DNA of 64,000 nucleotides from NCBI GenBank assembly GCA_020845895.1, contig JADLEX010000017.1, positions 1 to 64,000 of the forward strand. Direction: 5' to 3'. This document shows positions 3,835 to 58,400 of this stretch, piece after piece. The notes beneath the pieces are model-generated. The model had not been told where the DNA came from. It did no database searches and saw only the letters and a program-made list of their open reading frames with translations. The translations under genes were made by a program, and so were the position numbers. The DNA comes from Deltaproteobacteria bacterium. Lineage in GTDB: Bacteria; Lernaellota; Lernaellaia; JACKCT01. Each line of letters begins with the position of its first letter. Position 1 is the first letter of the stretch.

Positions 3835-3889
3835 TTACGTTTTCCGGAACACAAGCGCGGGCGGGCATCGCCATGCGCGGGAGACGGAC

Positions 3890-4243
3890 ATGAACCCGTT
3901 CTGGGGACGGTTTTTCGCGAACATCGCCGGGTTGGTCGTCATTCAAGCCCTCTTCGGCGGCATCCATTTCTCGGGCGCGTTCGCGTTCATTTTCGCGGCG
4001 CTGGTGCTGGGGATCGTCAACGCGGTCATCCGGCCCGTGGTCACGATTCTCTCCCTGCCCATCACCATCGTGACGCTCGGCATCTTCGCGCTCGTCGTGA
4101 ATGGTTTGATGCTCGGCCTCGTTTCGTGGCTCACGCCGGGATTCCATGTCGAGGGCTGCGGCACGACGATCTTCGCCGCGCTCGTTCTGTCGATCGTCTC
4201 GGCCATCGCGGGCCGCCTGATCGGCGTGGAGATGGACGACTGA
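3890..4243 (+). CDS. small four-helix membrane protein, phage-holin 4 superfamily (PF04020-like)
   Basis: A 117-residue protein made almost entirely of four hydrophobic helices. It shows the family hallmark of a helix pair followed by NAVIRPVV and ILSLPITIVTLGIF. Members are widespread chromosomal inner-membrane proteins despite the holin name; their role is not established. The ATG chosen gives an N-terminus MNPFWGRFF typical of the family. Its TGA overlaps the next ATG by one base (TGATG), so it is probably translationally coupled to the DNA glycosylase, although no functional link between them is obvious. Confidence 0.8.
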   Translation: MNPFWGRFFANIAGLVVIQALFGGIHFSGAFAFIFAALVLGIVNAVIRPVVTILSLPITIVTLGIFALVVNGLMLGLVSWLTPGFHVEGCGTTIFAALVLSIVSAIAGRLIGVEMDD

Positions 4244-4908
4244 TGGCGCGCGGCCGGGCCGCACGCGACCGCCACGCGCACCTGCCCGAACCGGAGCGAA
4301 CGCTCGCGGCATCGGACCCGAAACTCGGCGACGCGATCGCCGCGGTGATCGACGCGCACGGGGTGCAGCGTTATGCGAAGCGGACGGGTCACACGCCGTT
4401 TCAGATGCTCGCGCGGGCGATCGTCTTCCAGCAGCTTTCGGGCAAGGCGGCCTCGACGATCTGGGGTCGTTTCGCGGCGCTTTGCCCCGGAGGGCGCGTG
4501 ACACCCGAGGCGATCGGCGCGCTGCGTTTCGAGGACATGCGCGCGGCGGGGCTCTCGGCTCAGAAGGCCGCGTACGTCATCGACCTCGCCGAGCATGCCC
4601 GGAATCGGACCGTGCGTTTCACGCGCATCGGTCATCTGAACGACGAGGATGTGATCGACTCGCTGACGCACGTGAAGGGCGTGGGGCGATGGACGGCGCA
4701 GATGTTTCTGATGTTCACACTGCTGCGGCCGGATGTGCTGCCCGAGGGTGATTTGGGCGTGCGCAAGGGCGTCCAGATCGTCCATCGGCGGCCCGAGCTG
4801 CCCAGTCCTACCGAGGTGCTGGCCGTCGGCGAAAGCTGGGCGCCGTACCGCAGCCTCGCCAGCCTGTACCTGTGGCGAATTCAGGATTTGAAGGTTCCGG
4901 TGGAATGA
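4243..4908 (+). CDS. DNA-3-methyladenine glycosylase II (AlkA-like, HhH-GPD family)
   Basis: A 221-residue base-excision repair enzyme that removes alkylated purines such as 3-methyladenine from DNA. The helix-hairpin-helix is at about 141-158 (VKGVGRWTAQMF), and the catalytic aspartate is D170 in PEGDLGV, the expected distance downstream. An upstream segment FQQLSGKAASTIW matches the HhH-GPD core. The size fits single-domain bacterial AlkA homologues that lack the E. coli N-terminal domain. There is no FCL cluster (no CX6CX2CX5C tail), so it is not an endonuclease III. It starts within the stop codon of the preceding membrane-protein gene. Confidence 0.88.
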   Translation: MARGRAARDRHAHLPEPERTLAASDPKLGDAIAAVIDAHGVQRYAKRTGHTPFQMLARAIVFQQLSGKAASTIWGRFAALCPGGRVTPEAIGALRFEDMRAAGLSAQKAAYVIDLAEHARNRTVRFTRIGHLNDEDVIDSLTHVKGVGRWTAQMFLMFTLLRPDVLPEGDLGVRKGVQIVHRRPELPSPTEVLAVGESWAPYRSLASLYLWRIQDLKVPVE

Positions 4909-33621: not shown

Positions 33622-35475
33622 ATGACGGCGTGGGAGAGCGTGCTTCAGTTCGATCGCGACCTCTTCCTCGCCATCAACGGCATCGACCACCCCGTCTGGA
33701 ACGCCGTCTTCGGTTGGGGCACGTGGCTGGGCGACGGCCTCGTGCTCACACTGATCCTGTTCATTCTTACGCGGACGTTCGATCGGCGGCGCTTTCCGAA
33801 AAACTTCGCGCTCATCGGCCTCGGCATGGCGCTCGCGGGCCTCGTGAACGGCGCGATCAAGGACGCGGTCGACCGCCCGCGCCCGCTCGCCGACGCCGCG
33901 TTCGCGCCCGATTCCATCGGTGTTCCGCGATTGCCGGAGACATTCGGCTTGCCGATCCGCGATCACGAGTTTTTGGCGCAAACGCACGACGTCCGACGCC
34001 TCAAGGTCATCGGTCCGCCGCTGCGACGGGAGTCGTTCGGCTCCGGTCACACGACGGCGGCGTTCGCATTCGCGGCGGGGATGATTTACGCCGGTCGGCG
34101 GCGTGCCCGCTGGTTGTGGCTCATGTTCGGCGCGTTCGTCGGCGCGTCGCGCATGGTGTGCGGCGTGCACTACCCGCTCGACGTGCTCGCGGGGGCAGTC
34201 GTCGGGGTCGTGTCGTCGGTTGCGTTTCTGCGCACGTTCGAGATGTTTCACGGTCTGGCATCCGTGCCGAGGCCATGGCCAAGGCGCGACGGACCCGAAG
34301 ACTTGAATGTGATGATGGTCGTGGGCGAGGCGAGCGCCGACGTGTACGGCGCGCGGATTCTCGAACGGCTACGCGAGCGTGTGCGCTCCGTCGAGGCGTG
34401 GGGCGTGGGCGGCGAGCGACTGCGTGCGGCGGGATTTCGCGCCGTTGCCGACGCCCACGAACTTTCCATCGTGGGTTTCACGGCGGTCGCGACGTCGATC
34501 GTCACGATCGTGCGCATCTATACACGTCTCATGAGCGCGATGCGCGCGCGTCGGCCCGACGTGCTCGTGTGCATCGACCTTCCCGATTTCAACCTCATGC
34601 TCGCGACGCAGGCCCGCGCGCTCGGCGTGCCCGTCGTGTTCGTCATCAGCCCGCAGTTCTGGGCGTGGCGTCGCGGGCGCATTCCGAAGATCGCCGGGCG
34701 CATCAGCCGCATGATCGTCGCGTTTCCGTTCGAAAAACCGTTCTACGAAGAGGTCGGAACGCCGGTTTCGTATCACGGCCATCCGATTCTGGAGGAGCTC
34801 GCGCGGCGATTCGAATCGCGCGACGCGGCCATGACGCATTTCGGTCTCGACCCCACGAAGCGAACGCTGGTCGTCGCACCGGGATCGCGCCGAAACGAGT
34901 TCAAGTATCTGCTCGCGGAGATGTTCGGCGCGGCGAAACGCGTCAGCGACACGCTGGCGGGATGGCAGGTTGCCGTTCCGCTCGCGCCCAAGGCCGACGA
35001 AGCGGACTTTCGCGCCGAGGCCGATCGCATCGGCCTGCCCATCATCCTCACGCGAGGCGACAACTTCGACCTGTTTTCGATCGCCGATTTCGGCCTCATC
35101 TGCTCGGGCACCGCGACGCTGGAAGCGGCGCTCGCGGGACTCGCGCACGTCGTCGTCTATCGCGGCCATCCGCTCAACATGCTGCTGGCGAGGAGACTGG
35201 TGAAGATCGACCGGATCGGTCTGCCGAACATCATTTTGGGCGGAGATTCACCAACTTTCCCCGAGCTCATCCAGCAGGATGCGACGGCGGATCGACTCGC
35301 CGAAAGGGCGCTCGGGATCTTGCGGTCGCCGAACGACTATGAAAGACTCCGCGCCGCCTGCGCCGAGGTCCGCGCGAAGCTGACCGGCGGCGACGTGAGC
35401 GGAGCGATCGCGGACGACATTCTGTCCGTTTTGGCCGAGGGCAATGCTGCGGAACCTGTGGAATCGGTATTATGA
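33622..35475 (+). CDS. lpxB: fusion of PAP2 phosphatase and lipid-A-disaccharide synthase LpxB
   Basis: A 617-residue two-part protein. Residues 1-210 are a membrane PAP2 (type 2 phosphatidic acid phosphatase) domain with the three signatures KDAVDRPRP (80-88), GSGH (140-143) and SRxxxxxHxxxD (S176-D187). Residues about 228-617 are a full LpxB, beginning MMVVGEASADVYG, with CIDLPDFNL, PQFWAWRRGR and PGSRRNEFK, joining UDP-diacylglucosamine and lipid X. LpxB is normally a free, membrane-associated protein of about 380 residues. The PAP2 half could dephosphorylate lipid A, lipid X or undecaprenyl pyrophosphate. The sequence is open with no frameshift, and there are 7 bases between it and the porin gene. 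Confidence 0.92.
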   Translation: MTAWESVLQFDRDLFLAINGIDHPVWNAVFGWGTWLGDGLVLTLILFILTRTFDRRRFPKNFALIGLGMALAGLVNGAIKDAVDRPRPLADAAFAPDSIGVPRLPETFGLPIRDHEFLAQTHDVRRLKVIGPPLRRESFGSGHTTAAFAFAAGMIYAGRRRARWLWLMFGAFVGASRMVCGVHYPLDVLAGAVVGVVSSVAFLRTFEMFHGLASVPRPWPRRDGPEDLNVMMVVGEASADVYGARILERLRERVRSVEAWGVGGERLRAAGFRAVADAHELSIVGFTAVATSIVTIVRIYTRLMSAMRARRPDVLVCIDLPDFNLMLATQARALGVPVVFVISPQFWAWRRGRIPKIAGRISRMIVAFPFEKPFYEEVGTPVSYHGHPILEELARRFESRDAAMTHFGLDPTKRTLVVAPGSRRNEFKYLLAEMFGAAKRVSDTLAGWQVAVPLAPKADEADFRAEADRIGLPIILTRGDNFDLFSIADFGLICSGTATLEAALAGLAHVVVYRGHPLNMLLARRLVKIDRIGLPNIILGGDSPTFPELIQQDATADRLAERALGILRSPNDYERLRAACAEVRAKLTGGDVSGAIADDILSVLAEGNAAEPVESVL

Positions 35476-41872: not shown

Positions 41873-44779
41873 ATGAACATCCTGATGCTCCATCCGCACG
41901 ACATCTACTCGAACTCCGAGCCGTGGACGGTTCGCGTCACCTATCTCGCCACCGAGTTCGTCAAGCGCGGCCACAACGTGCGGTTGCTGTATCACCTGAT
42001 CGACCCGCGCATGAGCCTCGAAGAGGCGACGGCCCGCCAGGAATTCCCGTTCACGACCATTCCCTCGTACCGCTTTCAAATGGCGCTCGTCGGCAAGATG
42101 AAATTCGTCACCGAACTCGCCCGGTGGGCCGACGTCATCCACTTCCAGAAATGCTTTCCGCACGTGTCGATCCCCGCGCTTTGGGCCGGATATCGGCTCG
42201 GCAAACCCGTGCATTACGACTGGGACGACTGGGAGTGGGGGATCTACAACTACAATCCGATGAACCGCCTCGTCGGCACCGGCATCCGCGTCTTCGAACG
42301 CATGCTGCCTCGCCTGTGCGATTCGGTGAGCGTCGCGTCCGAAGCGCTACGGCGAATGGCGATGGAGCTCGGCGTGCCGGACAATCGCCTGTTCGACGGG
42401 CACGTCGGCGGCGACCTCGAGCGCTTCAAGCCCGATAACGACGGCACCCGCGTGCGCGCGGAACACCACATCGAGGGGCCGACGGTCCTTTATCTCGGCC
42501 AGCTCCACGGCGCGCAGTACCTCGAACTCTTTCTGCAAGCGGTGAAAATCGTCGTCGACAGCGGACGCACGCCGAATTTCCTGGTGGTCGGCGGCGGCGA
42601 GCGGTTCGGCGAACTTTTCCAGCTTGCCGAGACGATCGGCGTGGGTCACCAGGTGATCTTCACCGGGGCGGTGGATCACGACGTGGTGCCCGAGTACGTC
42701 GCCGCGGCGGACGTGGCCGTCGCGTGCTTCGCCGACACGGCGCAGGTGGCGACGAAATCCCCGCTGAAAGTCTGCGAATACCTGGCGGCGGGCAAGGCGA
42801 TCGTCGCGAGCCGCGTCGGCGAGGTGCCGCGCATGATCGGCGACGCGGGGATTCTGGTTCCGCCCGGCGATCCGGCCGCGCTGGCCGAAGGCATCATTCG
42901 CCTGCTCGACGACGAGGATCTGCGCAAACGGCTGTCGGCCAAGGCCCGGCGGCGCGCCGAGGACGAATTCAACTGGGGCGCGACCGCGCAGAATTTGTTG
43001 ACCGCCTACGAGATGATTCTCGACGAATCGCGATGGCTGAACTGGAAGATCGAAAAGGGTCAGGCGCGCACTCCGTTCTTTGTGCAGCCCTCCGGGCCGC
43101 CCCGGCCGATCTCGAAAAGCAAATACCTGACGCCGAAGCCCGCGGAAAAGCCGTTGACGCGTTCGGCGACGCCGGCGGCGCCGATGCCGGACGTGAATGT
43201 CTCCGCGCCGTCGCCCGTCACCGGGGGATCGCCCGGCACGAACGGCCACGGAGTCCACGCCGCGCCCGAACCGGGTTTTTCGCGCGTGCAGTTCATTTCC
43301 GGCGCATCGTCCGTGAGCGCCCAGGGCGGACTCCAGACCGTCGTTGCCGCGTCCCCGGTGGCGATCCCCGAGGACGCGCCCTTCGCCGAGCCCCGGCGGC
43401 TGCCGGGCACGCACGAGCGCTCGAACGGAAACGGCAACGGTCACGGGACGAACGGCCTCGCGAAACCCGCCGCGGTCGTGAACGGGAAAACGGAACGACG
43501 GCCCTGGGTGCCGAATCCGCCGAAGCCCCCGCACTACCGCCTCGGGCCGCTGTCGCCGCTGCGCCGGTTCGTCGAGGGGAATCTCGACATCGCCGGCGTG
43601 CTCGACGGGCGCGTCGCATTCGTCGGCCCGCACACGGTGCAGTTCGATCCCACTGACACCTGTCCCCACGACTGCATCGCGTGCTGGTGCCGCTCGCCGC
43701 TGCTCGTCGACAAGACGATGCCGGTCGAGGAGCAGAAGCAGCGCCTCGATTTCGACGTGCTGTGCGACGTGCTCGACGACCTCGTGCGCATGGGAACGAA
43801 GGAGATCTACATCGCGGGCGGCGGCGAGCCGATGGCCTACCCCAAGATCCTGCCGCTGTGCGAGCGGATCAAGGAAAAAGGGCTCATCTGCAACATCAAC
43901 ACGAGCTTTCTGAACGTCGGCAAGAAGGTCGCGCACGAACTCGCCCGCATGAAGGTCGACTTCATGACCGTATCGGTGTGGGCGGCGAGCCCCGAGACCT
44001 ACGTCCTCACGCATCCCAACAAGACCGAGGAATCGTACTGGGACCTGAGGGAATCGCTGACCTATCTCAACGAGGTCAAGGACACGGTTCCCTTCATCAA
44101 GACCTACAACGTGCTCACGAACCTGAACTTCCACGAGTTCAAGGCGATGGTCGATTTTGCGATCGACACGAAGTCGGAGAGCGTGGAGTTCACGGTCGTG
44201 GACACGATGCCCGGACGCACCGATTCGCTGCTCCTGAATGGCGAACAGCAGCGGTGGCTCTACGAAGAAGCGCTGCGCGTGCGGCGCTGGATCGTGGACG
44301 ACGAAAAGGAAGCGCGCGTGCAGCTCTACCTATACGACCAGTTCCTGCGACGCGTCTCGGGCGAGCACACGACGGTGGGCGAGCACGACCGGTTGGTGAT
44401 CGATTCGATGCCGTGCACGGTCGGCTGGAGCTTTTCGCGACTGCTCGCGAATGGCAACGTGAACGGCTGCCTGAAGTCGCACCGCATTCCGCATGGGACT
44501 GTGCATGAGCGGAGATTCCAGGACATCTGGACGGGCCGGCATCAGGTCGAGTTTCGCAAAAAGACCAACGTCTTCACGAAATCCGACCCCTGGTTCTCGA
44601 ACATCGGCAACGATCCCGACGCGAAATGCGGCTGCTACAAATCCTGCGACGATCTGGGTCGCAACGAGCACCTCTGGGGACGCATGCAGGCGATGCCCTG
44701 GTACAAACTCGCCGTCCTCAAGGCGGCGCAGCTCTACCTGCGCGCCACGGGGCAGTACCTGAAACCATTCTCCGTCTGA
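41873..44779 (+). CDS. GT4 glycosyltransferase fused to radical SAM/SPASM enzyme
   Basis: A 968-residue fusion. Residues 1-390 are a GT-B family 4 glycosyltransferase (MNILMLHPHDIYS; LYLGQLHGAQY; VATKSPLKVCEYLAAGKAI for the nucleotide-sugar site). A Pro/Ala/Gly/Asn-rich linker of about 150 residues (NGNGNGHGTNG) follows. The radical SAM domain has C597, C601, C604 in CPHDCIAC and GGGEP as the SAM-binding motif. A SPASM-like tail has cysteines at 848, 866, 919, 921 and 925 for extra Fe-S clusters. The radical SAM part is paralogous to that in the 906-residue protein downstream, with a shared lead-in DIAGVLDG and AFVGP. Predicted to transfer a sugar and oxidise or rearrange the same or a coupled product. 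First gene of the cluster. Confidence 0.85.
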   Translation: MNILMLHPHDIYSNSEPWTVRVTYLATEFVKRGHNVRLLYHLIDPRMSLEEATARQEFPFTTIPSYRFQMALVGKMKFVTELARWADVIHFQKCFPHVSIPALWAGYRLGKPVHYDWDDWEWGIYNYNPMNRLVGTGIRVFERMLPRLCDSVSVASEALRRMAMELGVPDNRLFDGHVGGDLERFKPDNDGTRVRAEHHIEGPTVLYLGQLHGAQYLELFLQAVKIVVDSGRTPNFLVVGGGERFGELFQLAETIGVGHQVIFTGAVDHDVVPEYVAAADVAVACFADTAQVATKSPLKVCEYLAAGKAIVASRVGEVPRMIGDAGILVPPGDPAALAEGIIRLLDDEDLRKRLSAKARRRAEDEFNWGATAQNLLTAYEMILDESRWLNWKIEKGQARTPFFVQPSGPPRPISKSKYLTPKPAEKPLTRSATPAAPMPDVNVSAPSPVTGGSPGTNGHGVHAAPEPGFSRVQFISGASSVSAQGGLQTVVAASPVAIPEDAPFAEPRRLPGTHERSNGNGNGHGTNGLAKPAAVVNGKTERRPWVPNPPKPPHYRLGPLSPLRRFVEGNLDIAGVLDGRVAFVGPHTVQFDPTDTCPHDCIACWCRSPLLVDKTMPVEEQKQRLDFDVLCDVLDDLVRMGTKEIYIAGGGEPMAYPKILPLCERIKEKGLICNINTSFLNVGKKVAHELARMKVDFMTVSVWAASPETYVLTHPNKTEESYWDLRESLTYLNEVKDTVPFIKTYNVLTNLNFHEFKAMVDFAIDTKSESVEFTVVDTMPGRTDSLLLNGEQQRWLYEEALRVRRWIVDDEKEARVQLYLYDQFLRRVSGEHTTVGEHDRLVIDSMPCTVGWSFSRLLANGNVNGCLKSHRIPHGTVHERRFQDIWTGRHQVEFRKKTNVFTKSDPWFSNIGNDPDAKCGCYKSCDDLGRNEHLWGRMQAMPWYKLAVLKAAQLYLRATGQYLKPFSV

Positions 44780-44786
44780 CGCCCGC

Positions 44787-45422
44787 ATGAACGACTTTGT
44801 TTACCACGACGATCGCGACGGCCGGCGATGGAAGGTCGGCTGGCCCGCGTTTCGCGTCGAGCGCCCGCCGTGCATCGAGGACGAGGTCGCGCGCCTCATC
44901 GCCGATCGACGCATCGTCGGCGTGTTCTGGGGTCGAGGCGAGTTCGGTCCGCGCGCGCTCGGCCACCGCTCGATCTTCGCCGATCCTCGGTGGGAGGGCA
45001 TGCGCGACTACCTCAATGACCGTGTCAAACACCGCCAATGGTTTCGGCCCTTCGCGCCGATCGTGCTCGCGCATCGCGCGCCGGATTGGTTCGATCTGCC
45101 CGTCGAGAGCCCGCATATGCTGCTCGTCGGCGACGTGCGCGCGGACAAACGCGCGCTCGTTCCCTCGATCACGCACGTGGATGGCACCGCGCGCGTGCAG
45201 ACGATCCGCGTGGAGGATTCGCCGCGCGTTTACCGCGTGGTCGAGGCGTTCGAGCGGCTCACCGGTGTGCCGATGATCCTGAATACGAGCTTCAACGATC
45301 ACGGCGAGCCGATCGTGGAGAAGCCGATCGACGCCTTCGCGTGTTTCGCGCAGACGGAACTCGACGCCCTGGTGATCGGCCCGTGCCTGCTGCAAAAGAT
45401 CCGCCCGGAGGGCGCGCGATGA
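44787..45422 (+). CDS. stand-alone C-terminal half of a NodU/CmcH-type carbamoyltransferase
   Basis: A 211-residue protein corresponding to the Carbamoyltransf_C (YrdC-like) domain only. GRGEFGPRALGHRSIFADP (about 49-67) and RPFAPIV, then MILNTSFNDHGEPIVEKP are the family signatures. The N-terminal ASKHA half is missing here, but an N-terminal half without a C-domain is encoded by the very next gene, which starts within this stop codon. The two presumably assemble into one O-carbamoyltransferase active site. The half gene order is C before N, the reverse of the usual single polypeptide. No frameshift remnants are visible around it. Confidence 0.85.
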   Translation: MNDFVYHDDRDGRRWKVGWPAFRVERPPCIEDEVARLIADRRIVGVFWGRGEFGPRALGHRSIFADPRWEGMRDYLNDRVKHRQWFRPFAPIVLAHRAPDWFDLPVESPHMLLVGDVRADKRALVPSITHVDGTARVQTIRVEDSPRVYRVVEAFERLTGVPMILNTSFNDHGEPIVEKPIDAFACFAQTELDALVIGPCLLQKIRPEGAR

Positions 45423-48139
45423 CGCCGCGCTACGTCATCGGCGCGGTCGTGTCCGATCACGACAGCTCCGTGTGCCTGCTGCGCGACGGCGCGCTCGTGG
45501 CGTGCGTGAACGAGGAGCGCCTGTGTCGCGTGCGCAAGGGCGACCGGCGCAATTCGATTCGCCGTGCGCTCACGGCGGTGCTCGCCGAGGCGGGCATTCG
45601 CCTCGGCGACGTGTCGGCGATCTTCTGCGACACCGACCACTACTTCGCTCCCGATCACGTGCCGGTGCCGGTCTTCCCCGACTACCCCGATCCCGCGCGC
45701 ATCTACCAGATCACGCACCACGTCGGCCACGCGGCGAGCGCGTTTTTGCCAAGCCCGTTCGACGAGGCGGCGTTTCTGACAATCGACGCGTCGGGGGGAA
45801 TCGCGCCGATCGCGGAATCGGAGACCGGCAAGGCGTATTGGAGCATGACGGCGCGCGAGACGGATTTCATGGCGCGCGGATTTCGGGCGGCTCACGTGCA
45901 TCCGCATCTGACCGAACTGCTCTCCGCGCTTCCCGGCGGGGAGGCGCGCAACTATCCCGCCGAAAGCCTGACCGCGGGGACGGCCCGTCGTGGCGAGGCG
46001 ATGACCGAATTGTGGGACGACTTCGCGCAGTCGTCTCTCGGGTATTTCTATGCCCAGTGCAGCCACTTCCTCGACATGGAGGAAGGGCACTTCATGGGCC
46101 TCGCCAGCTACGGAAAGTCCGGGCCGATGCTGGACGCCATGCGCGAGGTGATTCGCCTCGAAGACGACGGACGCATCCGTATCGACGCGGACATGATGCA
46201 CTTTTGGCAAGACCGGCACGTGCTCGAGGACCCCGTTTCCATACGTCGCCTTTCGACCGCGTTCATGAAGACCTTCGGGCCGGGGCGCAAGTTCTTCGAG
46301 CCTATCACCGAGCGGCACATGGATTTCGCGCACGCCGCGCAGGCGCGCCTCGAAGAGGCGATGGTGCACGTCGCGAAACACCTGCGTCGCGTGAGCGGGA
46401 TGAAAAACCTCGTGCTCGCGGGCGGCGTGGCGCTCAACTCCGTGGGCAACGGCGTCGTTCTTCGCGAGGCGGGGTTCGACAACATCTTCATCCAGCCCGC
46501 CGCGTCGGATGACGGCCTCGCGCTGGGCTTCGCGCTCTTCGGTGACTACGTTCTGGACGAGTGCCGCGACGGCGCGGCATTCCGCATGGGCAGCGCGTTC
46601 CTCGGGCCCGACCGTGACGCCGAATGCGCGGCCTTCGTGGAGCAGCTCGAACAGGGGCTCGTCGAGATCGAGTACCTCGATTCGTTGCCGTTCACGTGGC
46701 ATGTGGACGTGCTGTGGAAAGGGCCGGGCGACCGCGATTTCGAACGTACGCGCATGCGTCATGCGGGAAGCGGCCGGCACGTCGCGCATCTGCCCATCGC
46801 GGCGCGGGGCGGTCTCGAATATCACTTCGAGGTTTACGCGGCCTCGCCTGACGACTACGAACGCGCGGCGGTCGAAAACGCAAGTCGTTCGGACGAAGGG
46901 TTATCCGCACATCCGAAAAACGGAAATGGTCACGCGGCGGACCCGCGACGACCGACCGATCCCTTCGAGATGTTTCTTTACGATCACCGCGATATCGCGG
47001 GAATTCTCGACGGTGAGCGCGCGTTCGTCGGGCCGGAGCAGGTCGTCATCGATCCGACCAACCGCTGCGACAACAACTGCCTCGCGTGCTGGACCTATTC
47101 GCCGCTGCTCGGCGACGCCGCCCCGCCGGAAGAGTGGTTCAGGCAGCAGATGTCGCCGGAGCTGATGCACCGGACGATTGAGGAACTCGCGGATTTGGGC
47201 ACGCGGCGAATTCGGTTCACGGGCGGCGGCGAGCCCTTCGTGCACCCGCAGATGATCGAGTTTCTCGAACACGTCAAATCGCGCGGCATGATCGCGTGCG
47301 TGACGACGAACTTCACGGCGCTGACGTCCGAAAAGGTCCGCCGCATGGCGGAAATCGGCGTGGACGAGGTCACGGCGAGCATCTGGGCGGGAACGCCGGA
47401 CATGTACGCGCGCAGTCATCCGAAAAAGACCGCGCGCACGTTCGAGAAGATCGAGGCGCTGCTCAAGGAATTTACGGCGTCGAAGCCCGGTCACGCGCGG
47501 CTGTACGTCGCCAACGTGCTATTCTCGATGAACTACGTCGAGACGCGCGAGATGTACCACCTCGCCAACCGGTGCGGTGCGGACGGCATCTACTTCGCAC
47601 TCGTCGATTCGGTCGCGACGCGCACCGACGGCCTGTTGCTCACGCCGCCGCACATTCGCGTGCTGCGCGAGCACCTTGCCGAGGTCAAGACGCGCGTGGA
47701 CGAACTCAACCGCACGCGCGCGGTGCCGTTCGTACTCGACAACTACCACGGCCTGATGCGACGGCTGGAGAGCATCGGCGCGACGCGCGGTGACTACGAC
47801 GCGCACGCGGTGGACGCGATTCCATGTTACGTCGGGTGGACGTTTTGCCGAATCACGCCGGACGGGCAGGTTGTCCCGTGTTGTCGCGGTGTGGACAAAC
47901 CGATGGGGAATCTGCACAAACAGACGTTCACCGAGATCTGGGCCGATCACCGTTATCGGGAGTTTCGTCGCATGGCGCTGCGCGAGAAAAAATCGCACCC
48001 GTATTTCGCAGAGATCGGCTGCCACCGGACCTGCGACAACCTGATGCACAACGAGACCGAACACGCGCGCTTCACGGCGCTCGGCGCCGAGGAGCGGGAG
48101 CACCTGGTGCGTTTTGTCGTGCGGGGCGAAGCGCGATGA
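45419..48139 (+). CDS. N-terminal half of a carbamoyltransferase fused to radical SAM/SPASM
   Basis: A 906-residue fusion. Residues 1-400 are the ASKHA-fold half of a NodU/CmcH carbamoyltransferase (SDHDSSVCLLRDG; VNEERL; the histidine cluster THHVGHAASAF; LVLAGGVALNSVGNG). About residues 420-490 form a strand-rich region (FTWHVDVLWKG) of unknown fold, followed by a linker with NGNGH. The radical SAM domain has C550, C554, C557 (CDNNCLAC), GGGEP, and a SPASM-type tail (AIPCYVGWTF, VVPCCRG, CHRTC). The carbamoyltransferase C-domain is supplied by the preceding gene (ATGA overlap). It uses carbamoyl phosphate and ATP by family analogy, probably to carbamoylate a hydroxyl of a sugar or similar. 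Confidence 0.85.
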   Translation: MTPRYVIGAVVSDHDSSVCLLRDGALVACVNEERLCRVRKGDRRNSIRRALTAVLAEAGIRLGDVSAIFCDTDHYFAPDHVPVPVFPDYPDPARIYQITHHVGHAASAFLPSPFDEAAFLTIDASGGIAPIAESETGKAYWSMTARETDFMARGFRAAHVHPHLTELLSALPGGEARNYPAESLTAGTARRGEAMTELWDDFAQSSLGYFYAQCSHFLDMEEGHFMGLASYGKSGPMLDAMREVIRLEDDGRIRIDADMMHFWQDRHVLEDPVSIRRLSTAFMKTFGPGRKFFEPITERHMDFAHAAQARLEEAMVHVAKHLRRVSGMKNLVLAGGVALNSVGNGVVLREAGFDNIFIQPAASDDGLALGFALFGDYVLDECRDGAAFRMGSAFLGPDRDAECAAFVEQLEQGLVEIEYLDSLPFTWHVDVLWKGPGDRDFERTRMRHAGSGRHVAHLPIAARGGLEYHFEVYAASPDDYERAAVENASRSDEGLSAHPKNGNGHAADPRRPTDPFEMFLYDHRDIAGILDGERAFVGPEQVVIDPTNRCDNNCLACWTYSPLLGDAAPPEEWFRQQMSPELMHRTIEELADLGTRRIRFTGGGEPFVHPQMIEFLEHVKSRGMIACVTTNFTALTSEKVRRMAEIGVDEVTASIWAGTPDMYARSHPKKTARTFEKIEALLKEFTASKPGHARLYVANVLFSMNYVETREMYHLANRCGADGIYFALVDSVATRTDGLLLTPPHIRVLREHLAEVKTRVDELNRTRAVPFVLDNYHGLMRRLESIGATRGDYDAHAVDAIPCYVGWTFCRITPDGQVVPCCRGVDKPMGNLHKQTFTEIWADHRYREFRRMALREKKSHPYFAEIGCHRTCDNLMHNETEHARFTALGAEEREHLVRFVVRGEAR

Positions 48140-49101
48140 CGCGGCGCGTACTCATCACCGGCGGCGCGGGCTTCATTGGCCATCATCTCGCGCGGCGCAT
48201 GCTCAGCGAGGGCTGGGCGGTGACGGTGATCGACAACGAGAGCACCGGTCGGCGCGAGGACGTCCCCGCCGAGTGCCGCTACTTCAAGGGCGACGTGCGA
48301 AACACCGACGACCTGCGCGAGGCGTTCGCGGACGCGCCGGACGCCGTTTTCCACATCGCCGGACAGGCGAGCAACATCAAGAGCTTCGATCGCCCGCAGC
48401 TCGACATGGACGTCAACGTGATCGGAACGATCAACGTCGTTGAGATGTGCCTGCTGCGTCGCGTGCCCAAGCTCGTGTACGCGGGTTCGATGACCGCGTA
48501 CGGGCCGATGGCGACGCTGCCCGTGGCGGAAGACGCGGTGCTTGCGCCGATTTCCTACTACGGCATCGGCAAGATGGCGGCGGAGCGATTCGTGCTCGCC
48601 ACCGCCTTGCGTCGCGATCTCGCCGCGCCCTTCGACGCGACCGTGTTTCGCATGTTCAACGTGTACGGTCCGGGCCAAAGCCTGACCAATCCTTACCAAG
48701 GTGTGCTGGCGATTTTCATCGGCCATGTGCTGCGTGGCGAGCCGTGCGTGATCCATGCCGACGGCGCGCAGTCGCGCGACTTCGTCTATATCGACGACGT
48801 GACCCGCGCGTGGGCCGCGGCGGCGACGCCGGGTGTGGCTTCGGGCGAGGCGGTCAACCTGGGCTCGGGGCAGGGCATCGCCGTGCGCGATCTGGTCACG
48901 CATGTCTGCCGCGTTCTCGGTCATGACGCGGATGCGTATCCGCGAACATTCGAACCGCGTCGACCGGGGGATCAGGATCATACGCGGGCCGACATCCGCA
49001 AAGCCGCCGCCGTGCTCGGATGGAAGCCGCAGGTGGGCTTTGAAGAAGGCCTGCGGCGAACGATCGACTGGGCTCGAAACGCCTCGGAACCCGTCGCCTG
49101 A
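48136..49101 (+). CDS. NAD-dependent sugar epimerase/dehydratase (extended SDR)
   Basis: A 321-residue extended short-chain dehydrogenase. It has the NAD site ITGGAGFIGHHLA, the catalytic Y-x-x-x-K in YYGIGKMAAERF with the upstream serine/threonine region YAGSMTAYG, and a C-terminal substrate domain with FNVYGPGQS and DFVYIDDV. The closest functional type is UDP-glucose 4-epimerase-like enzymes. The start overlaps the radical SAM fusion by 4 bases, so it is firmly part of the cluster and points to a nucleotide-sugar intermediate. Confidence 0.9.
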   Translation: MTRRVLITGGAGFIGHHLARRMLSEGWAVTVIDNESTGRREDVPAECRYFKGDVRNTDDLREAFADAPDAVFHIAGQASNIKSFDRPQLDMDVNVIGTINVVEMCLLRRVPKLVYAGSMTAYGPMATLPVAEDAVLAPISYYGIGKMAAERFVLATALRRDLAAPFDATVFRMFNVYGPGQSLTNPYQGVLAIFIGHVLRGEPCVIHADGAQSRDFVYIDDVTRAWAAAATPGVASGEAVNLGSGQGIAVRDLVTHVCRVLGHDADAYPRTFEPRRPGDQDHTRADIRKAAAVLGWKPQVGFEEGLRRTIDWARNASEPVA

Positions 49102-49223: not shown

Positions 49224-50906
49224 ATGAATATCCTGGGAATCTCGGACAACCACGGATCGGGGGCGGCCCTGGTTCGAAACGGGCGTCTCGTCGCGGCCGT
49301 CAACGAGGAGCGCATCGATCGCGAGAAAAACTCGCTGGCGTTCCCGTGGGGCGCCATCGACGAGGTCCTGCGCATGGAAGGGCTCGCGCCGCGAGACATC
49401 GACCTCGTCGTCGTCGGCAGCGTGTTCACGCCGATCTTTTTTCTGCGGCTGCTTCGGCCTTTTCATCAGTTCATCAAGCGGCGCGCCAGCCAGTTCGGCC
49501 TGCTCTTCGATCTGTACATCTACTACCAGATTCTGGTCCGCAACTCGCGGCTCGCCACGCGGATCGAAACGCTCCTGTCCCGCGCGCTCTTCGGTCGGCA
49601 GTTCACCAAGCGCGGTTTCGCGTGCGAGATCCACCTGCTCGACCACCACACCGCGCATGCGTACTCGGCCTTTCTCACGTCGCCGTTCGAACACGCGACG
49701 GTCATCACGGCCGACGCGATGGGCGACGGAGTTTCGGTCACCGTCGGAATTGCGCGCGAGGGGCGCATCGAGCGGATCTGGGCACAGGACGGACGCAGCG
49801 CGTTCAACCCGTACTACTCGCGCGTGACCGAGCTGCTCGGCTTTGTTCCGAATCGCCACGAGGGCAAAGTGACGGGCCTTGCAGCCTACGGCGACGCCGA
49901 GGTGCTTAGGTCCGACTTCGAGCGCGCCGCGCACTTTCGTGGGCCGGGCTTCAATTCCTTCCGTTTCTGGCATCCCGGTTTGAAACACTACGGATTCTTT
50001 GGGAGAATCGGGCATTATTCACGGGAATTGATCGCCGCCGGCTGCCAGAGGAACCTCGAGGTTCAGATGGGCGCGTTTGTGGACCACTGGGTCCGCAAGA
50101 CGGGTGTGCCCGATGTCGTGCTCGCGGGCGGGATCTTCGAGAACGTCAAGCTCAATCAGCGCATCCACGAACTCGACACGGTGCGCGCCGTGTACATCTT
50201 CCCCAATATGTCGGACGGCGGGCTCGGCGCGGGCGCGGCGCTGGCGTTCGGCGCGAATCGCCCGCGCCCCGTGGATACGATGTACCTCGGCCCCGCCTAC
50301 GATCGCGACCGTATCGAACGCGCGGCGGCGGCGTCGGGACTTGTCGTTGAACGGCCCGAAGACCGGCCGGATCACGTCGCCGATCTGCTCGCGGCCGGTC
50401 ATGTGATCGCGCGATTCGACGGGGCGATGGAGTATGGTCCGCGCGCTCTGGGCAACCGGAGCATTCTCTACCGCCCCGACGACCCGAAGGTGAACGACTG
50501 GCTGAACGAGCGGCTGCGCCGGACGGAGTTTATGCCGTTCGCGCCGGTGGTGCGGCGGGAACGCGCGGCGGATTGCTTCGTCGGCGTCGACGGTGCCGAG
50601 TTCACGGCGCGCTTCATGAACATCTGTTTTGACTGCACGGACCTGATGAAACGCCTGTGCCCGGGTGTCGTGCACGTGGACGGCACGGCGCGCCCGCAGA
50701 TTCTGACGCGCGAGGAAAACCCCGCTTACTACGACCTGCTGCAGCGGTTCGAGGAGAAGACGGGGTTGCCCGCGCTCATCAACACGAGCTTCAACATGCA
50801 CGAGGAACCGATCGTCATGACGCCGGAAGACGCCGTGCGCGCATTCGTCGCCGCGCGGTTGCCTTATCTGGTGCTCGGCCACCTCGTGGTGAAAGGGATC
50901 GCGTGA
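49224..50906 (+). CDS. full-length NodU/CmcH-family carbamoyltransferase
   Basis: A 560-residue two-domain enzyme. The N-terminal ASKHA half shows ILGISDNHGSGAALVRNG, VNEERID, LDHHTAHAYSAF and VLAGGIFENVKLNQ; the C-terminal half has MEYGPRALGNRSIL, FMPFAPVV and LINTSFNMHEEPIV. Relatives such as NodU, TobZ and CmcH carbamoylate sugar or cephem hydroxyls using carbamoyl phosphate and ATP. This is the intact counterpart of the split enzyme encoded 1-4 kb upstream. Length is normal for the family. It shares a GTGA overlap with the following radical SAM gene. Confidence 0.93.
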   Translation: MNILGISDNHGSGAALVRNGRLVAAVNEERIDREKNSLAFPWGAIDEVLRMEGLAPRDIDLVVVGSVFTPIFFLRLLRPFHQFIKRRASQFGLLFDLYIYYQILVRNSRLATRIETLLSRALFGRQFTKRGFACEIHLLDHHTAHAYSAFLTSPFEHATVITADAMGDGVSVTVGIAREGRIERIWAQDGRSAFNPYYSRVTELLGFVPNRHEGKVTGLAAYGDAEVLRSDFERAAHFRGPGFNSFRFWHPGLKHYGFFGRIGHYSRELIAAGCQRNLEVQMGAFVDHWVRKTGVPDVVLAGGIFENVKLNQRIHELDTVRAVYIFPNMSDGGLGAGAALAFGANRPRPVDTMYLGPAYDRDRIERAAAASGLVVERPEDRPDHVADLLAAGHVIARFDGAMEYGPRALGNRSILYRPDDPKVNDWLNERLRRTEFMPFAPVVRRERAADCFVGVDGAEFTARFMNICFDCTDLMKRLCPGVVHVDGTARPQILTREENPAYYDLLQRFEEKTGLPALINTSFNMHEEPIVMTPEDAVRAFVAARLPYLVLGHLVVKGIA

Positions 50907-52498
50907 CGGATTCGCCGCGCGAAGGCGCGCCCGACACGCGGCGCGACCGGGCGCCGGACATCTTGCTCTTCTCGCCGCCGCCGTGGCTGGTCTCAGGGCC
51001 GCCGCTGGGTCTGGCGGCGTTGTCGGCGTTTCTGCGCGCCGAGGGGTGGGGCGTTCGCGTTCTGGACGGAAATGCCAAGACCTATCGGCGCAGTTCCTCC
51101 GCTTATCACAAGCTGTGGCTGTGGGATTACAGCGCGTTTTGGGAGGACGCCGAGCGCGTCGAGCGAGCGTTCGGCGATGTGCTGCGCGCACTTGCGGAGG
51201 ATGCGGCGGCGATCGGTGCGCCGGTCGTGGGTGTCAACGTGGTGCACCGCAAGGAGGCCGCCGCGGCGATCTTTCTGCGCCGGTTGCGCGAGTTGCAGCC
51301 CGACGTTCTTGTGTTCGTCGGCGGCCCCGGCGCGGGCTGGCGGGAATCGCGCGACCATATGCGTCACGTCGCCGCGAACCTGATTGACGGCTTCGTGGTG
51401 GGCGAGGGCGAGATCACGTGTCACGAACTGCTGTCGCGCATCGGCCGGGGAGAATCGCCCGACAACCTGCCGGGATTCGTGACCGGCGACGAATCGGGCG
51501 AGAGCCGATTTCGCCCCGGACCGTTTCTGACCGATATGGGTCGGCTTCCCGTGCCCGACTTCGGCGACTTTGACATGACCGAGTACGATATCGATTCGCT
51601 CGTCGTCGAGTGGAATCGGGGGTGCGTCGCGCGGTGCACCTATTGCAGCATCAATGAATACTGGAACGCGTTCCGCTTCAAGTCGGCGGAGGCGGTCGCC
51701 ACGGAGTTGGAGACGCTCGCCACGCGGCACGGCATTCGGCGTTTCACCGTGGTCGATCCCATGGTGAACGGGAATCCCGACCATTTGGAACGCGTTTGCG
51801 ACGCCATCATCGCGCGCGGCATATCCGTCGAGTGGTCCGCGGGGTTTTCGCCCAACAAGACCGTGTCGGCCGAGGTGTTCCGCAAATTGCGCGCCGCCGG
51901 GTGCTGGAAGCTCGAATTCGGCGTCGATTCCGGTTCGGACCGCATCCTGAAGAAGATGGGAAAACGATATCGGGCCGACGCCGCCGGACAAATGATTGAC
52001 GACGCTCATAACGCCGGAATCGAGGTCATGCTCTATTTGATCGTCGGATTCCCCGGCGAGACCGACGAAACGGTGGACGAAACCATCGCCTGGCTTCGCC
52101 GCCACGCGCGCGCCATCGATATGGTGCGCTCGGTGTCGAGCCTGACGATCGAAGACGGGACAGCCGTGGAACGCCGCGCGGAACTGTTCGGCATCGACGA
52201 ACTCGACCGGTCGGACACGCATTGGCGTGACGACTGGAGCGCGGGCGAGGATACGCCGGCGATTCGCGCCGCCCGTGTCGAGCGCGTGCTTGCGACGATC
52301 CGCGAACTCGGGATCACGATCGAGTCGGAGCTCGTCGCCGACGGGTCGGCGTTGGCCGCGGGGCCGGACGCCTGGGCGGATACGGTGGTGGACGAGGAGT
52401 TTTTGCGCAATCACGAACGGCAGCGTCAGGCCCATGGCGGGTCCATGATGTGTTCGTCGTTCCCCGGCGGGCAGGCGGATGTTCAAGAACGCGCGTGA
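50903..52498 (+). CDS. B12-binding-domain radical SAM protein
   Basis: A 531-residue protein starting at GTG within the preceding stop. Residues about 18-190 form a cobalamin-binding-like Rossmann domain (LLFSPPPWLVSGPPLGLAAL, FVGGPGAG, VVGEGE) without the DxHxxG histidine motif. The radical SAM domain has CVARCTYCS in EWNRGCVARC, VDPMVNG, FGVDSGSDRILKKMGK and LYLIVGFPGET. Such enzymes often methylate or rearrange unactivated carbons. It is a close paralogue of module 1 of the next, giant protein (shared EWNRGC, CxIN, FRxKSA, VDPMVNG). The next gene begins inside its last 20 bases. Confidence 0.9.
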   Translation: MTDSPREGAPDTRRDRAPDILLFSPPPWLVSGPPLGLAALSAFLRAEGWGVRVLDGNAKTYRRSSSAYHKLWLWDYSAFWEDAERVERAFGDVLRALAEDAAAIGAPVVGVNVVHRKEAAAAIFLRRLRELQPDVLVFVGGPGAGWRESRDHMRHVAANLIDGFVVGEGEITCHELLSRIGRGESPDNLPGFVTGDESGESRFRPGPFLTDMGRLPVPDFGDFDMTEYDIDSLVVEWNRGCVARCTYCSINEYWNAFRFKSAEAVATELETLATRHGIRRFTVVDPMVNGNPDHLERVCDAIIARGISVEWSAGFSPNKTVSAEVFRKLRAAGCWKLEFGVDSGSDRILKKMGKRYRADAAGQMIDDAHNAGIEVMLYLIVGFPGETDETVDETIAWLRRHARAIDMVRSVSSLTIEDGTAVERRAELFGIDELDRSDTHWRDDWSAGEDTPAIRAARVERVLATIRELGITIESELVADGSALAAGPDAWADTVVDEEFLRNHERQRQAHGGSMMCSSFPGGQADVQERA

Positions 52499-55400
52499 CG
52501 CCGGATCGCTCGCATTCCCCGAGCACGTGATGATCCAGACCACGTCGCGGTGTAACTCCGCGTGCGTGATTTGCCCGTGGCCCGATACGGCGAAGGCGCA
52601 GGCGCAGGGCGACATGGACGACGCGCTTTTCGCGTCGCTCGTGGATGAGCTGAAGACCTATCCAAATCTCACGCGCGTGATGATGTACCTGATGAACGAG
52701 CCGCTGCTCGACCGGCGGATGCCGGAACGCATCGACCGCGTGCGCCGCGCGTTGCCGAACGCGGAGATCTATCTCCTCACGAACGGCATCCTGCTCGACC
52801 GCGAACTCGGGGACCGGATCATCGATTCCGGTTTGTCGTGGATTGGCCTGTCGATCCACGCGATCGACAACGACACTTATAAGAACATCACGGGGCGAGG
52901 TGATTTCGGGAAAATCCGCGACCGGCTCGAAACGTTCGTGGATCGCGCGATGGCGGCACGGGGCGGCGAGTTCGTTCAGGTCAACATCACCAAGGTGCGC
53001 CCGCTCATCGACGACGAGGAATTCGAGCGCGCGGCGAAGCACTGGCGCGATCTGGGCGTGCGCCGCGTGGACGTGGATCAGGGCTACATCAGCCGCGCGG
53101 GCAACGTGGACGTCTGGGGTCACGTGCAGGTCGATGTTCGCCGGACATCGGGATGCGGGACGCTGTGGGCCTACAAAATGGCGCACATTCTCTTCGACGG
53201 CGACGTGCTGCCGTGCTGCATGGATTGGCGACGGTCGAAGGTGCTGGGCAACATCCGCGAGGCCGGATCGCTCCTCGATGTCTGGCGTGGCCGCGGTCGA
53301 AACGCCTTCCTCGACGACCTTGGCTCGGGCGAGGAACTCCCCGAGGGATTCTTGTGTTCTCGCTGCGAGGACGTCATCCCCGCCGAGGGCGTTCACGTTG
53401 ACACGCGAGCGCCGGTGCCGATCCCGACCGATCAGGTGTTCTCCCGCGTGAGGTTCGTGTCGTCCGTTGTCGAAACGCAATCCGGTACGACCCCGGCTGC
53501 CGCGACGGTCGCCACGAGAAATGGCCCATCGCGCCCGGTCGCAGCGCACACTTCGACCTCGAAACTTCACACGCTCCTGTTCAATCCGCCGCCGTGGCTG
53601 GTACATGCGCCGCCGCTGGGCATCGCGTCCATCGCGGGATACTTGAAGGCGCGCGGGCGCCGCGTGACCGTGATGGACGCCAACGTACGCGTCTATCACG
53701 ACGCGCATGTCGCGGATCGCAAACTTTGGCAGTGGGAGCACGGCGAAATCTGGAGCGACGCGGCGTCGGCCGAACGACTCTTCGGCGAGAGCCTGCGTCG
53801 TCTCGCGCGCGAAGCGGCTGAAGCCGAGGTCGATGTGGTCGGCGTCAGTCTCGTGTCGCGCAAGGAAGTCCCCACGGCGATTTTCGTGCGCGAACTTCGC
53901 CGCCTGCGCCCCGGCGTGCATGTGTTCGTGGGCGGACCGAACACGAGCCACCCCGATCTGCGCGCGCACATCCGCACGATCCTCGGCGATCTGTTCGACG
54001 GGTTCCTCTATGGCGAGGGAGAGGCGGCATTCGAGAACTTGCTGGAACGCCTCGAATCCGGCGCGCCGCGGGACGGCCTGCCCGGGCTCGTCCTCTTCAA
54101 CAGGACGACCGACGAAGAAATCGTGAACGAGGCGGCGGAACTGCCGAATTTGGACGCGCTCACGGTACCGGATTTCGATGGCTTCGACCTGTCACTCTAT
54201 GAATCACCCGCGCTCGTGGTCGAGTGGAATCGCGGGTGCGTCGGTAAGTGCACGTTCTGCAACATCAACGACCTGTGGAAGAGCTTCCGCTACAAATCCG
54301 CGGGCCACGTCGTGAACGAACTGGCGACGCTGACCGACCGGTACAGCACGCGGGATTTCTCCATCGTCGACCCCATGGTGAACGGCGACGTCCCGACGCT
54401 GGAGGCGATCTGCGACGGGATCATCGCGCGCGGGCTCGATGTTCGCTGGGCTGCGGGGATTTCGCCGAATCGCGAGGTCGGCCCCGATTTGTTCCGCAAG
54501 ATGCGCCAGGCCGGTTGCTACCGGTTGGAATTCGGCGTGGAGAGCGGATCGGACGAAATCCTGCGGCGCATGGGCAAGGATTATCGCTCGCCGCTGGCCG
54601 CTCAGATGCTCAAGGACGCGCACGACGCGGGAATCATGGTGGTGCTCTACCTCATCGTCGGGTTCCCGCGCGAGACGCAAATCGAGTTTGAGGAGACCCT
54701 CGCGTTTCTGGAGCAAAACGCCGCACACATCGATCTGATCCGCAGCGTCAATGGCCTTGTCATCATCCACGGCACGCCGATCGAGCGAAAACCGGGCAGC
54801 TTCGGAATCGCCGAGCCGAACCGCCACGAGCCGGGATGGACCACGCACTGGTCATCGGACGAGAACACGCCGGAAGTGCGCGCGGCACGCGTGCGCACGG
54901 TGGTCAAACGCCTCCGGGAACTGGGGATCGCGGTGGAATTCCAGAACACGGAAGAAGTGATGCCCCACGAGATGCGGTTCGCCGAAAAGGCGGACCGGTT
55001 GACGCGGCGGCTCGCGGCGATCGCGCAGGACTGGGGCGATCTGACCGATCGAATGAATACCCGCATCGGCGAAAACGGCGGTGCGGTGCGCGGGCGCGGG
55101 CAGCTCGCCCTGGTGCTATGCCCCGTGTGGGGCGTGGACAGCCCGCCGCTGGGACTCGCCACCGTCGCGGGCTATATGCGCGCGCGCGGTTACGACGTGG
55201 CGACGATCGACTTCAACATCGAGCTGTTCGCGCGCTCGCCCGAGCACCTCAAGCCGTTCTTCGAGGAGAACAGTTTCCGCCACTGGACTGATGAGGAGAG
55301 CTGCGCGCGGCTCGTTCGCGCCTTCGACCGCGACATCGAAAACCTCGTCGCGCGGATCGTCGATCTGAATCGCCGCGTCATCGGGTTCACCGTGTATTCG

Positions 55401-58400
55401 GCGAATCGCCTGTTCACGATCGAGGTCATGCGTCGCATCAAGGATCGCGATCCCGGCAAGGTGCTCGTGGTCGGCGGGCGCGGGGTGCAGACGTCGAACG
55501 AGCGGCTGCTTTTCCCGCCGGACATCGCCGACTATTTTGTGGTGGGCGAGGGCGAGGAAGCGCTCGTCGAGATCATGAACGCGGTCTTCGACGGACGCGA
55601 CGCCGGCGCGATCGCGGGTGTGGACCGATTCGTGGGGGCCACCCTCGCGGGCGCTTCGCCGCGCGGGCGCATCGCCGATCTCACGACCGTCCCGCCCCCT
55701 GCTTACGACCAGTTGCCGCTCGACCTGTATCGCAACGACGAGATTCCCGTGCAGTTTTCGCGCGGGTGCGTCGCGCATTGCACCTTCTGCAACGACAACA
55801 ACAAGAACACGGGCTTTCGCACGCGCCCGGGCGAGCATATGGCGCGCGAGGTCGCGCACCTGGCGCGTTCGCTCGGGCGAAAGCGGTTCCGCTTCAACGA
55901 TCTGCTCATCAACGGCGACCTCGAGGTGCTGGAGCAGATGTGCGACACGCTGATTGAGGAGAACCTCGACATCCGCTGGATCGCGCTCGCGCAACCTCGC
56001 GGCGACATGAGCGACGAACTGGTGCGCAAGATCGCGCACGCCGGGTGCTACACGCTCAACCTCGGCGTCGAACACGCCTCGGACCGCGTCCTCAAGCGCA
56101 TGGGCAAGGGCTTTCGCGTCGTCGACATGGAGCGCGCGCTCGGCCAGATCCGGTCCGCGGGCATCAACACGATGATCAACTTCATCGTCGGATTCCCCGG
56201 CGAGGAGGAAGAGGACGTCGACGCGGCGATCGAGTTCGTGCGCCGCAACCGCGCAAACATTTGCGGCGTCACGTCGGTCAATTCCTTCATCCTGCTCGAG
56301 GATTCTCCGATCGAGAAAAACGCGGCGAAGATGGGGATCACGTGGCCCGATTTCGCCACCCGTGATGTGAAATGGGTGTTGGGATCGAACACACCCGAGG
56401 TGCGAGAACGGCGTCTCTCCCGATTCCTCAACTTCCTCGAATCGGAGAAGATTCCCATCTGCGTGACGAATTCGCAGGAGCGCGCCGCGGATGTTTCGGT
56501 GCTGCCGCCCGCGGAAGCGGAGCCAGCGCCGGCGCAGGCGGCGCTCGTGTCGGTGCACACGTCGGGATGCGGAGATCACGACGACGGATTCGATCCCGCG
56601 AAGGGTGAGCCGCGCTTCGAGGTCGTGCCGCATTCGGCGACCGACGTGCTGCTCATCAAGTGTCCCGTCTGGGGCGTCGATGTCGCGCCGCTCGCGATCG
56701 CCTACCTCGCGCAGTGCTGCCGCGAGGCGGGGTTCTCGGTGCAGGCGCTCGATTTGAATGTGAAGATCCACAACCGCTGCCACGATCGCGGCCTGTGGCG
56801 GATGGATCGGTACAAGGAGTGGGCCGACCCGGCGCATTTCCCACTTACGTATGCGTCGCTGTGGGAGCTCACGGAACACTACCTGAAGCAGATCGCCGCG
56901 CACCCCGCGAAGGTCATCGGGTTCTCGACGTGCACCTCGAACTGGATGTTCACGATCGAGACGACGAAGCGACTGAAAGCGATGTCGCCGGACAAGGTGA
57001 TCGTGCTCGGCGGGCCGGGCGTGACCAACAGCTTCGAGGCCGAACAGCTCCATCCCGACCAAGCGGACTACGTGTTCTTCGGCGAGGGCGATCTCGGGTT
57101 TCCGACGCTGGTCGAAGCCGTGAAAAACGGCCGCGAACCGGAGGGCATCAAGGGTCTCATCCGCGTGGGATCCGGCTTCACCTACGCGACGGTCGAAAAA
57201 GCCATCGTGGAGCGCGGCATCACGATTCCGAATCCCACGATGGAAGAGTTGAACCTGTGGGAATACTCGGGGACTGCCGTTCCGCTGCTTGGTAGTCGAG
57301 GATGCGTGCGCCGTTGCACCTTCTGCAACGACCACCACATCTACCAGAAGTATCGCCACCGCCCCGCCAAGGAAATCTTCGAGGACATGGAGTGGCACGT
57401 CCGCAATCGCGGCGCGGTGCATTTCACGTTTCTCGACCTGCTCATGAACGGGCACATGAAGGTGCTCGAGGAGTTCTGCGACCTCATCATCGCGGCGGGC
57501 TATCAGGTGGCGTGGGGCGGGCAGGCGATCATCCGCAAAGAGATGACGCCGGAGATCCTGGGCAAAATGGCCAAGGCTGGCTGCAAGAGCATCGTGTACG
57601 GCATGGAGAGCTTCAACGACAAGGTCCTGCGCCTCATGCGCAAGTACTACACGCAGGACCTCGCGAAGCGCGTGCTGACCGACACGATCGCCGCCGGTAT
57701 CGAGCCGATCATCAACATCATCTGCGGGTTCCCGGGCGAGGGCATCGAGGAATTCGAGGACACGTACAACTTCATCCGCGACCACCGCGAGATCATCGGG
57801 CAGGTCGCGTCGGTCTCTCCGTGCCTCATCAACCTGGGCAGCGAACTGTTCGACCGATGGGAAGAGTTCGGCGTCGTGTTCCCCGAAAACGACGGCAGCG
57901 TGAAGTGGTACACGCAGGACGGCACGAACACGTACGAGGAACGCCTGCGCCGCATGATGCTCGTGACCGAGTTGCTCGCGGGTCGCGACATGAACATCCA
58001 CACCGTGAACATCTATGACAAGGGCGATCGCGACGTGCGCCTCGCGCGAGACGCGGTTGCGCGCGAAGCCGCGAAGAACGGGAAGTCGAGTGACGCGGTG
58101 ATTGCGCCGGACGCGCAAAAGCCGCGGACGGAGCACGCACGGCCCGAACGCACGGATGCAGTGCTCGCATTGATGCCGCCGTGGGGGGTGAACTTTCCTC
58201 CGTTGGGGATCGCGTCGCTAGCGACCGCCACGCGCGAACGCGGCCATGGCGTGCTTGTGCGCGATCTCAATGTCGAGGCGTGGGCGTCGTGCGGGGAATA
58301 CCTGCAAACCTGGTGGGAGCCGGAGAATCTGAAGTACTGGGCCCCGGGCGGGCGGCTCAACGAGATCAGCGCGTTCCTGGTGCCGCTCGTCTCCGAATTT

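Follow-up and report, generated by a model that had tools for sequence, protein, structure and literature searches.

Two adjacent genes, referred to here as B and C, probably encode the two subunits of one class III O-carbamoyltransferase, which was inserted into a pair of radical SAM (rSAM) genes and acts on a glycan or glycolipid acceptor; this is the best explanation of the locus as a whole. Both genes lie in the window, i.e., the whole stretch of 64,000 nucleotides that was analysed, which represents contig 17 of a 4.98 Mb assembly. Enzymes of this kind, normally single proteins, place a carbamoyl group on sugars or other molecules. The domains and the predicted chemistry are those of a class III enzyme, whereas the two-gene, YrdC-first architecture departs from that class.

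Layout of the locus

The initial annotation had placed the enzyme at 44787-46700, a range that holds B and the Kae1-like part of C; the fused gene C extends further, to 48139. The features are as follows.

41873..44779, + strand: gene A, a 968-aa protein that joins a GT4 glycosyltransferase to a radical SAM-SPASM enzyme (Pfam GT4, Radical_SAM/SPASM; GT4-rSAM_A orthologues in other phyla)
44787..45422, + strand: gene B, a free-standing YrdC-like carbamoyltransferase C-domain, 211 aa (PF16861; AlphaFold model)
44787..44870, + strand: N-terminal extension of B with VYxDDRxGRxW (alignment; homologous to the segment after the beta-sandwich in the G242/G300 protein, hhalign E 5e-8)
45419..45422, + strand: ATGA overlap of the B stop and the C start, with GGAGGG a few bases upstream
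45419..48139, + strand: gene C, Kae1-like N-domain, beta-sandwich and radical SAM-SPASM, 906 aa
45419..46615, + strand: Kae1-like half of C, residues 1-399, with H14, H100, H104, D123 and D364 (PF02543; TobZ match)
46652..46846, + strand: Ig-like beta-sandwich of C, residues about 412-476 (model strands with pLDDT about 80-93; homologous to the G242/G300 domain)
47054..47986, + strand: radical SAM-SPASM part of C, with the CX3CX2C motif spanning residues 550-557 (Pfam; cysteines invariant in 5 aligned copies)
48136..49101, + strand: NAD-dependent sugar epimerase, its start overlapping the end of C by ATGA
49224..50906, + strand: full-length carbamoyltransferase paralogue of the ordinary kind, 560 aa, with the N domain ahead of the C domain (a single chain matching PF02543 and PF16861)

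The epimerase gene and C are likely to belong to the same operon, and lipid A genes and a KDO transferase gene are found upstream. The genome carries 4 full-length carbamoyltransferases and 5 carbamoyltransferase C-domains in total. Elsewhere in the window, the ORF at 33622-35475 fuses a PAP2 phosphatase domain ahead of LpxB (lipid A disaccharide synthase), and a single 2361-aa ORF at 52479-59564 contains 5 radical SAM stretches and 4 B12-binding domains; a relative (G003, L074 12211-19287) has a 2358-aa ORF in the corresponding place. An extra stand-alone radical SAM-SPASM protein of about 365 aa, ending in GCARCCK, is encoded just downstream of C in five relatives (G002-G006, L072-L076), and no such gene was noticed in the module of the window genome.

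Two halves of a class III enzyme

Gene B encodes a complete carbamoyltransferase C-domain, matching the PF16861 (Carbam_trans_C) profile over 1-170 of its 170 positions (E 2.4e-66), with GPRALGHRS at residues 54-62. It consists of this domain and 34 preceding residues only, so the acylphosphatase/zinc-finger domains that precede YrdC in HypF-type proteins are absent. The AlphaFold model of B (pLDDT 84, pTM 0.83) aligns over residues 19-208 gaplessly to TobZ 381-570 (Z 27.2, rmsd 2.5, 190 residues aligned by structure comparison of the model), and at the resulting offset of 362 its K81, M111, T167 and S168 correspond to TobZ K443, M473, T529 and S530. T529 of TobZ binds carbamoyl phosphate (PMC10321239), and PDB titles name the TobZ variants K443A, M473I and S530A. 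These four carbamoyl-phosphate-site residues of B are conserved among its copies, as in a class III C-domain.

Gene C is a single 906-aa frame in which Pfam places Carbam_trans_N (PF02543, 8.8e-33), Radical_SAM (PF04055, 2.5e-16) and SPASM (PF13186, 3e-13), the latter two above cut-off, confirming the earlier reading that the ASKHA half is fused to a radical SAM enzyme. The AlphaFold model of residues 1-505 (pLDDT 75, pTM 0.66) matches TobZ 0-369 over residues 3-399 (Z 30.9, rmsd 3.0, 318 residues aligned by structure comparison of the model); the fold comparison against the PDB took in residues 3-404, i.e., the Kae1-like part without the sandwich. The motifs THHVGHA (residues 99-105) and LAGGVALNS (residues 333-341) are present, and thus both halves keep the family motifs that had been attributed to them. 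Residues H14, H100, H104, D123 and D364 align with H27, H133, H137, D156 and D333 of GdmN, of which H27 is the general base and the other four are metal ligands (PMC9633730). All five are invariant, giving a Kae1-like domain with a His2-Asp2 metal site and a general-base histidine. The radical SAM-SPASM part has both the CX3CX2C motif and the SPASM cysteines, with C550, C554, C557, C803, C821, C822, C868 and C872 invariant in 5 genomes. A role of the beta-sandwich as a starch-binding module was considered and rejected, as it had no Pfam support and only a weak GlgE N-domain match (E 0.15). Neither PF01300 (Sua5_yciO_yrdC) nor PF00814 (TsaD) was listed by Pfam for B or C at E values up to 1.

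Taken together, the models of B and of the Kae1 half of C tile TobZ almost completely (0-369 and 381-570), which places the cut in the inter-domain linker of TobZ. The initial annotation had named the loss of key ATP or carbamoyl-phosphate residues from either half as a finding that would count against it; such a loss was looked for and was not seen. Wherever a split copy could be read from end to end, it retains the metal ligands, the general base and the carbamoyl-phosphate residues. When columns nearly invariant in 106 full-length enzymes were compared with the split copies (seven copies of B and six of the Kae1 half), 32 of 36 such columns in B and 29 of 37 in the Kae1 half were kept in all of them. 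The exceptions in the Kae1 half include K224, a lysine in 105 of the 106 full-length enzymes and S or H here, P47 (I/V/L) and K39 (R). Phage carbamoyltransferases likewise lack the lysine at the K224 position, which weakens the objection from its loss.

The few conserved positions lost would also fit a decayed, non-catalytic carbamoyltransferase that now merely scaffolds its radical SAM partner. However, nearly all catalytic and invariant residues are kept across three families, and the differences between the B copies lie mostly at third codon positions, a pattern of selection, so we regard decay as very improbable.

Recurrence, a second split and origin

The same split was found when relatives were checked, as the initial annotation had suggested. 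B and the Kae1 half stand side by side, with the same cut and 54-72% identity, in all seven genomes of the phylum that were compared, a phylum inferred to be Ca. Lernaellota/FEN-1099 (GTDB phylum FEN-1099 is Ca. Lernaellota; PMC11382960). The gene order GT4-radical SAM gene A, B, C and the close or overlapping ends of B and C also recur in 7/7, and the one-chain, Kae1-first arrangement of class III enzymes is thus replaced throughout by two genes with YrdC first. This supports, together with the PF16861 match and the gene coordinates, the claim that the C-domain is a separate 211-residue gene ahead of the ASKHA half, and the ATGA said to couple the halves is indeed present in the window, with the C start inside the B stop. 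The adjacency in 7/7 genomes and the third-codon-position pattern of B argue that the split and the fusion are not due to chance.

C is uninterrupted in five of the seven genomes; in G002 and G006 it is disrupted by frame changes or ambiguous bases, probably through assembly faults. These breaks, and the fact that the data are MAGs, raise the question whether misassembly or a frameshift made an ordinary gene look split. Such an artefact is refuted by the recurrence of the identical arrangement and cut in seven genomes of different genera, and a frameshift cannot yield a reversed domain order, leaving this explanation a negligible probability.

A second, differently cut split occurs in two genera of another phylum (G242 and G300), where a stand-alone gene that follows acetate kinase combines linker, beta-sandwich and YrdC, and a free-standing Kae1-like gene lies elsewhere, unlinked to it. 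Conserved residues are present in both genes of this split. The loci are as follows.

L224 (G242) 3471-4370, L280 3399-4286, L278 3528-4559 and L293 1465-2697: sandwich-YrdC and lone Kae1-like genes of the G242/G300-type split

The first 95 residues of the G242/G300 sandwich-YrdC protein match the linker and beta-sandwich of C (hhalign E 2.6e-9), whereas the 40 residues after them correspond to the N-terminus of B (hhalign E 5e-8). The Lernaellota cut therefore falls between the sandwich and the DDRxGRxW segment, which are contiguous in the G242/G300 lineage. These matches hint that the N-terminus of B may still pack against the sandwich of C.

Carbamoyltransferase C-domains were surveyed in 290 and in 381 genomes, one survey being bounded by an E-value limit, and the statements here cover the matches listed. 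Among these, C-domains apart from the two split lineages and G301 are parts of long frames, or proved on closer inspection to sit at a contig end or a frame change. Six short C-domain ORFs were examined, of which L222, L225, L226 and L227 run into contig ends and are not splits, L223 has the canonical order but a frame change within its linker, which leaves L224 as the one real split; no second clean split pair was present among the G002:C1 short ORFs. No contiguous single-chain Kae1-sandwich-YrdC protein was found among the matches listed in the 381 genomes. In G301, a YrdC-like carbamoyltransferase domain of 282 aa stands alone and its linker domain is shortened (L281 2971-3816); a lone Kae1 partner for it was looked for and not found.

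A scan of genomes with C gave 21 loci outside the phylum, all matching its radical SAM part, in Wallbacteria, Omnitrophota, Cloacimonadota, Caldisericota, Calescamantes and others. Several of these loci have a GT4-rSAM_A fusion with rSAM_C directly downstream of it, and in others rSAM_A and rSAM_C form one protein. Carbamoyltransferase halves next to the rSAM genes were absent from all the loci fetched from other phyla, suggesting that the insertion between rSAM_A and rSAM_C took place in this phylum. On the simplest reading, the carbamoyltransferase probably entered there in the ancestor of the phylum, and its Kae1 half became joined to rSAM_C. The initial proposal that carbamoylation is physically tied to a radical step holds insofar as the two are one chain, but the rSAM genes exist without the carbamoyltransferase in other phyla. 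In the B tree the split copies fall near the full-length Lernaellota proteins L039/L041 with 94% local support, and in the Kae1 tree they fall near L039/L041 in an 88% group that also contains other full-length proteins; at this moderate support both trees fit a single parent enzyme, without proving it. No viral source of the split was seen, since the two domains share a single frame at 76 of the 77 viral loci. The radical SAM-SPASM pair itself, often with GT4 and either adjacent or fused, was observed across several candidate phyla (L094-L113), and no earlier description of such a pair was found. GT2, an ABC-2 transporter and more radical SAM genes lie near an orthologous pair in another phylum.

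Proposed function and comparison with known systems

In the proposed reaction, B would form carbamoyl-adenylate from carbamoyl phosphate and ATP and hand it to the Kae1 domain of C, as in TobZ, and this domain would use its general-base histidine and its His2-Asp2 metal site to transfer the carbamoyl group to an acceptor hydroxyl. The ATGA overlap may keep B and C in step. The radical SAM-SPASM part (rSAM_C) would be an older neighbour, to which the Kae1 half was joined on insertion, and may be part of the same pathway, where it might even share its target molecule with the Kae1 domain. The most likely acceptor is a glycan or glycolipid of the cell surface that this cluster itself makes, a best guess based on the lipid A, KDO-transferase, GT4 and epimerase genes here and on the GT2 and transporter genes near the orthologous pair.

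It is plausible that B and C work together as a single enzyme; we infer that they bind each other, that they are active and that their substrate is also the one used in the radical step. Against this, with 4 full-length carbamoyltransferases in the genome, B could serve another partner. The two might even be independent proteins, B feeding several Kae1 partners including the full-length paralogues and the Kae1 domain of C being a substrate- or nucleotide-binding module with no transferase activity. The 5 C-domains in the genome, the substitutions at K224 and P47 and the precedent of TsaC and TsaD as loosely coupled halves (PMC10321239) agree with such independence. However, the strict B-C adjacency with close or overlapping gene ends in 7/7 genomes and the full retention of the metal ligands and base of C speak against it, and we consider independence improbable. 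A bolder form of the preferred two-subunit reading is an obligate B-C heterodimer in which the DDRxGRxW segment of B completes the sandwich of C, and in which a single glycan is modified successively by the Kae1 domain and the radical SAM domain of C; this we regard as rather unlikely. If true, one ancestral domain would be shared between two genes, in a two-subunit machine for carbamoyl and radical modification.

Among known systems, TobZ, GdmN, NovN and VtdB (class III, PF02543 and PF16861) share with B and C both domains, the metal and base residues and the carbamoyl-phosphate residues, at 41-47% identity for B and 26-31% for the Kae1 half in structure alignments. Unlike B and C, they are single chains with Kae1 before YrdC, without a radical SAM domain or an Ig-like insert. 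No description of a split or YrdC-first NodU/TobZ (class III) enzyme was found in the open-licence literature. HypF (class II) has its YrdC-like part before its Kae1-like part (chain residues 192-360 and 397-764 by structure-match ranges), as in the order B then C; it differs from B and C in being a single chain that carries additional N-terminal domains and has HypE as its target, and B is 16-19% identical to it. TsaC/Sua5 and TsaD/Kae1, which make t6A, are separate YrdC and Kae1 proteins with a two-step adenylate transfer, like the B/C split, but they use another acyl group and belong to other families, and B has no match to the TsaC Pfam model PF01300. The description of the enzyme as order-swapped thus stands for the YrdC-first order in 7/7 genomes, but is overstated for the wider superfamily, given the HypF order and the separate TsaC and TsaD.

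The G242/G300 split also yields a two-gene carbamoyltransferase, whose beta-sandwich and DDRxxRxW segment match the linker domain of C and the N-terminus of B. It differs in being cut between Kae1 and the beta-sandwich, in its unlinked genes and in the absence of a radical SAM fusion. The GT4-rSAM/rSAM pair of Wallbacteria, Cloacimonadota, Omnitrophota and others has orthologous radical SAM-SPASM domains and mostly GT4, but the loci fetched lack the carbamoyltransferase halves.

The B/C arrangement would mean that a TobZ/NodU-class enzyme, one chain in the solved members, can exist in two-subunit form and become connected to other enzymes, while its fusion to a radical SAM enzyme points to surface modification in an uncultured phylum. 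In a naturally split enzyme, each half-reaction (adenylate formation and transfer) can be studied alone. Such a split class III enzyme would form a bridge to the two-protein TsaC/TsaD design and the reversed design of HypF.
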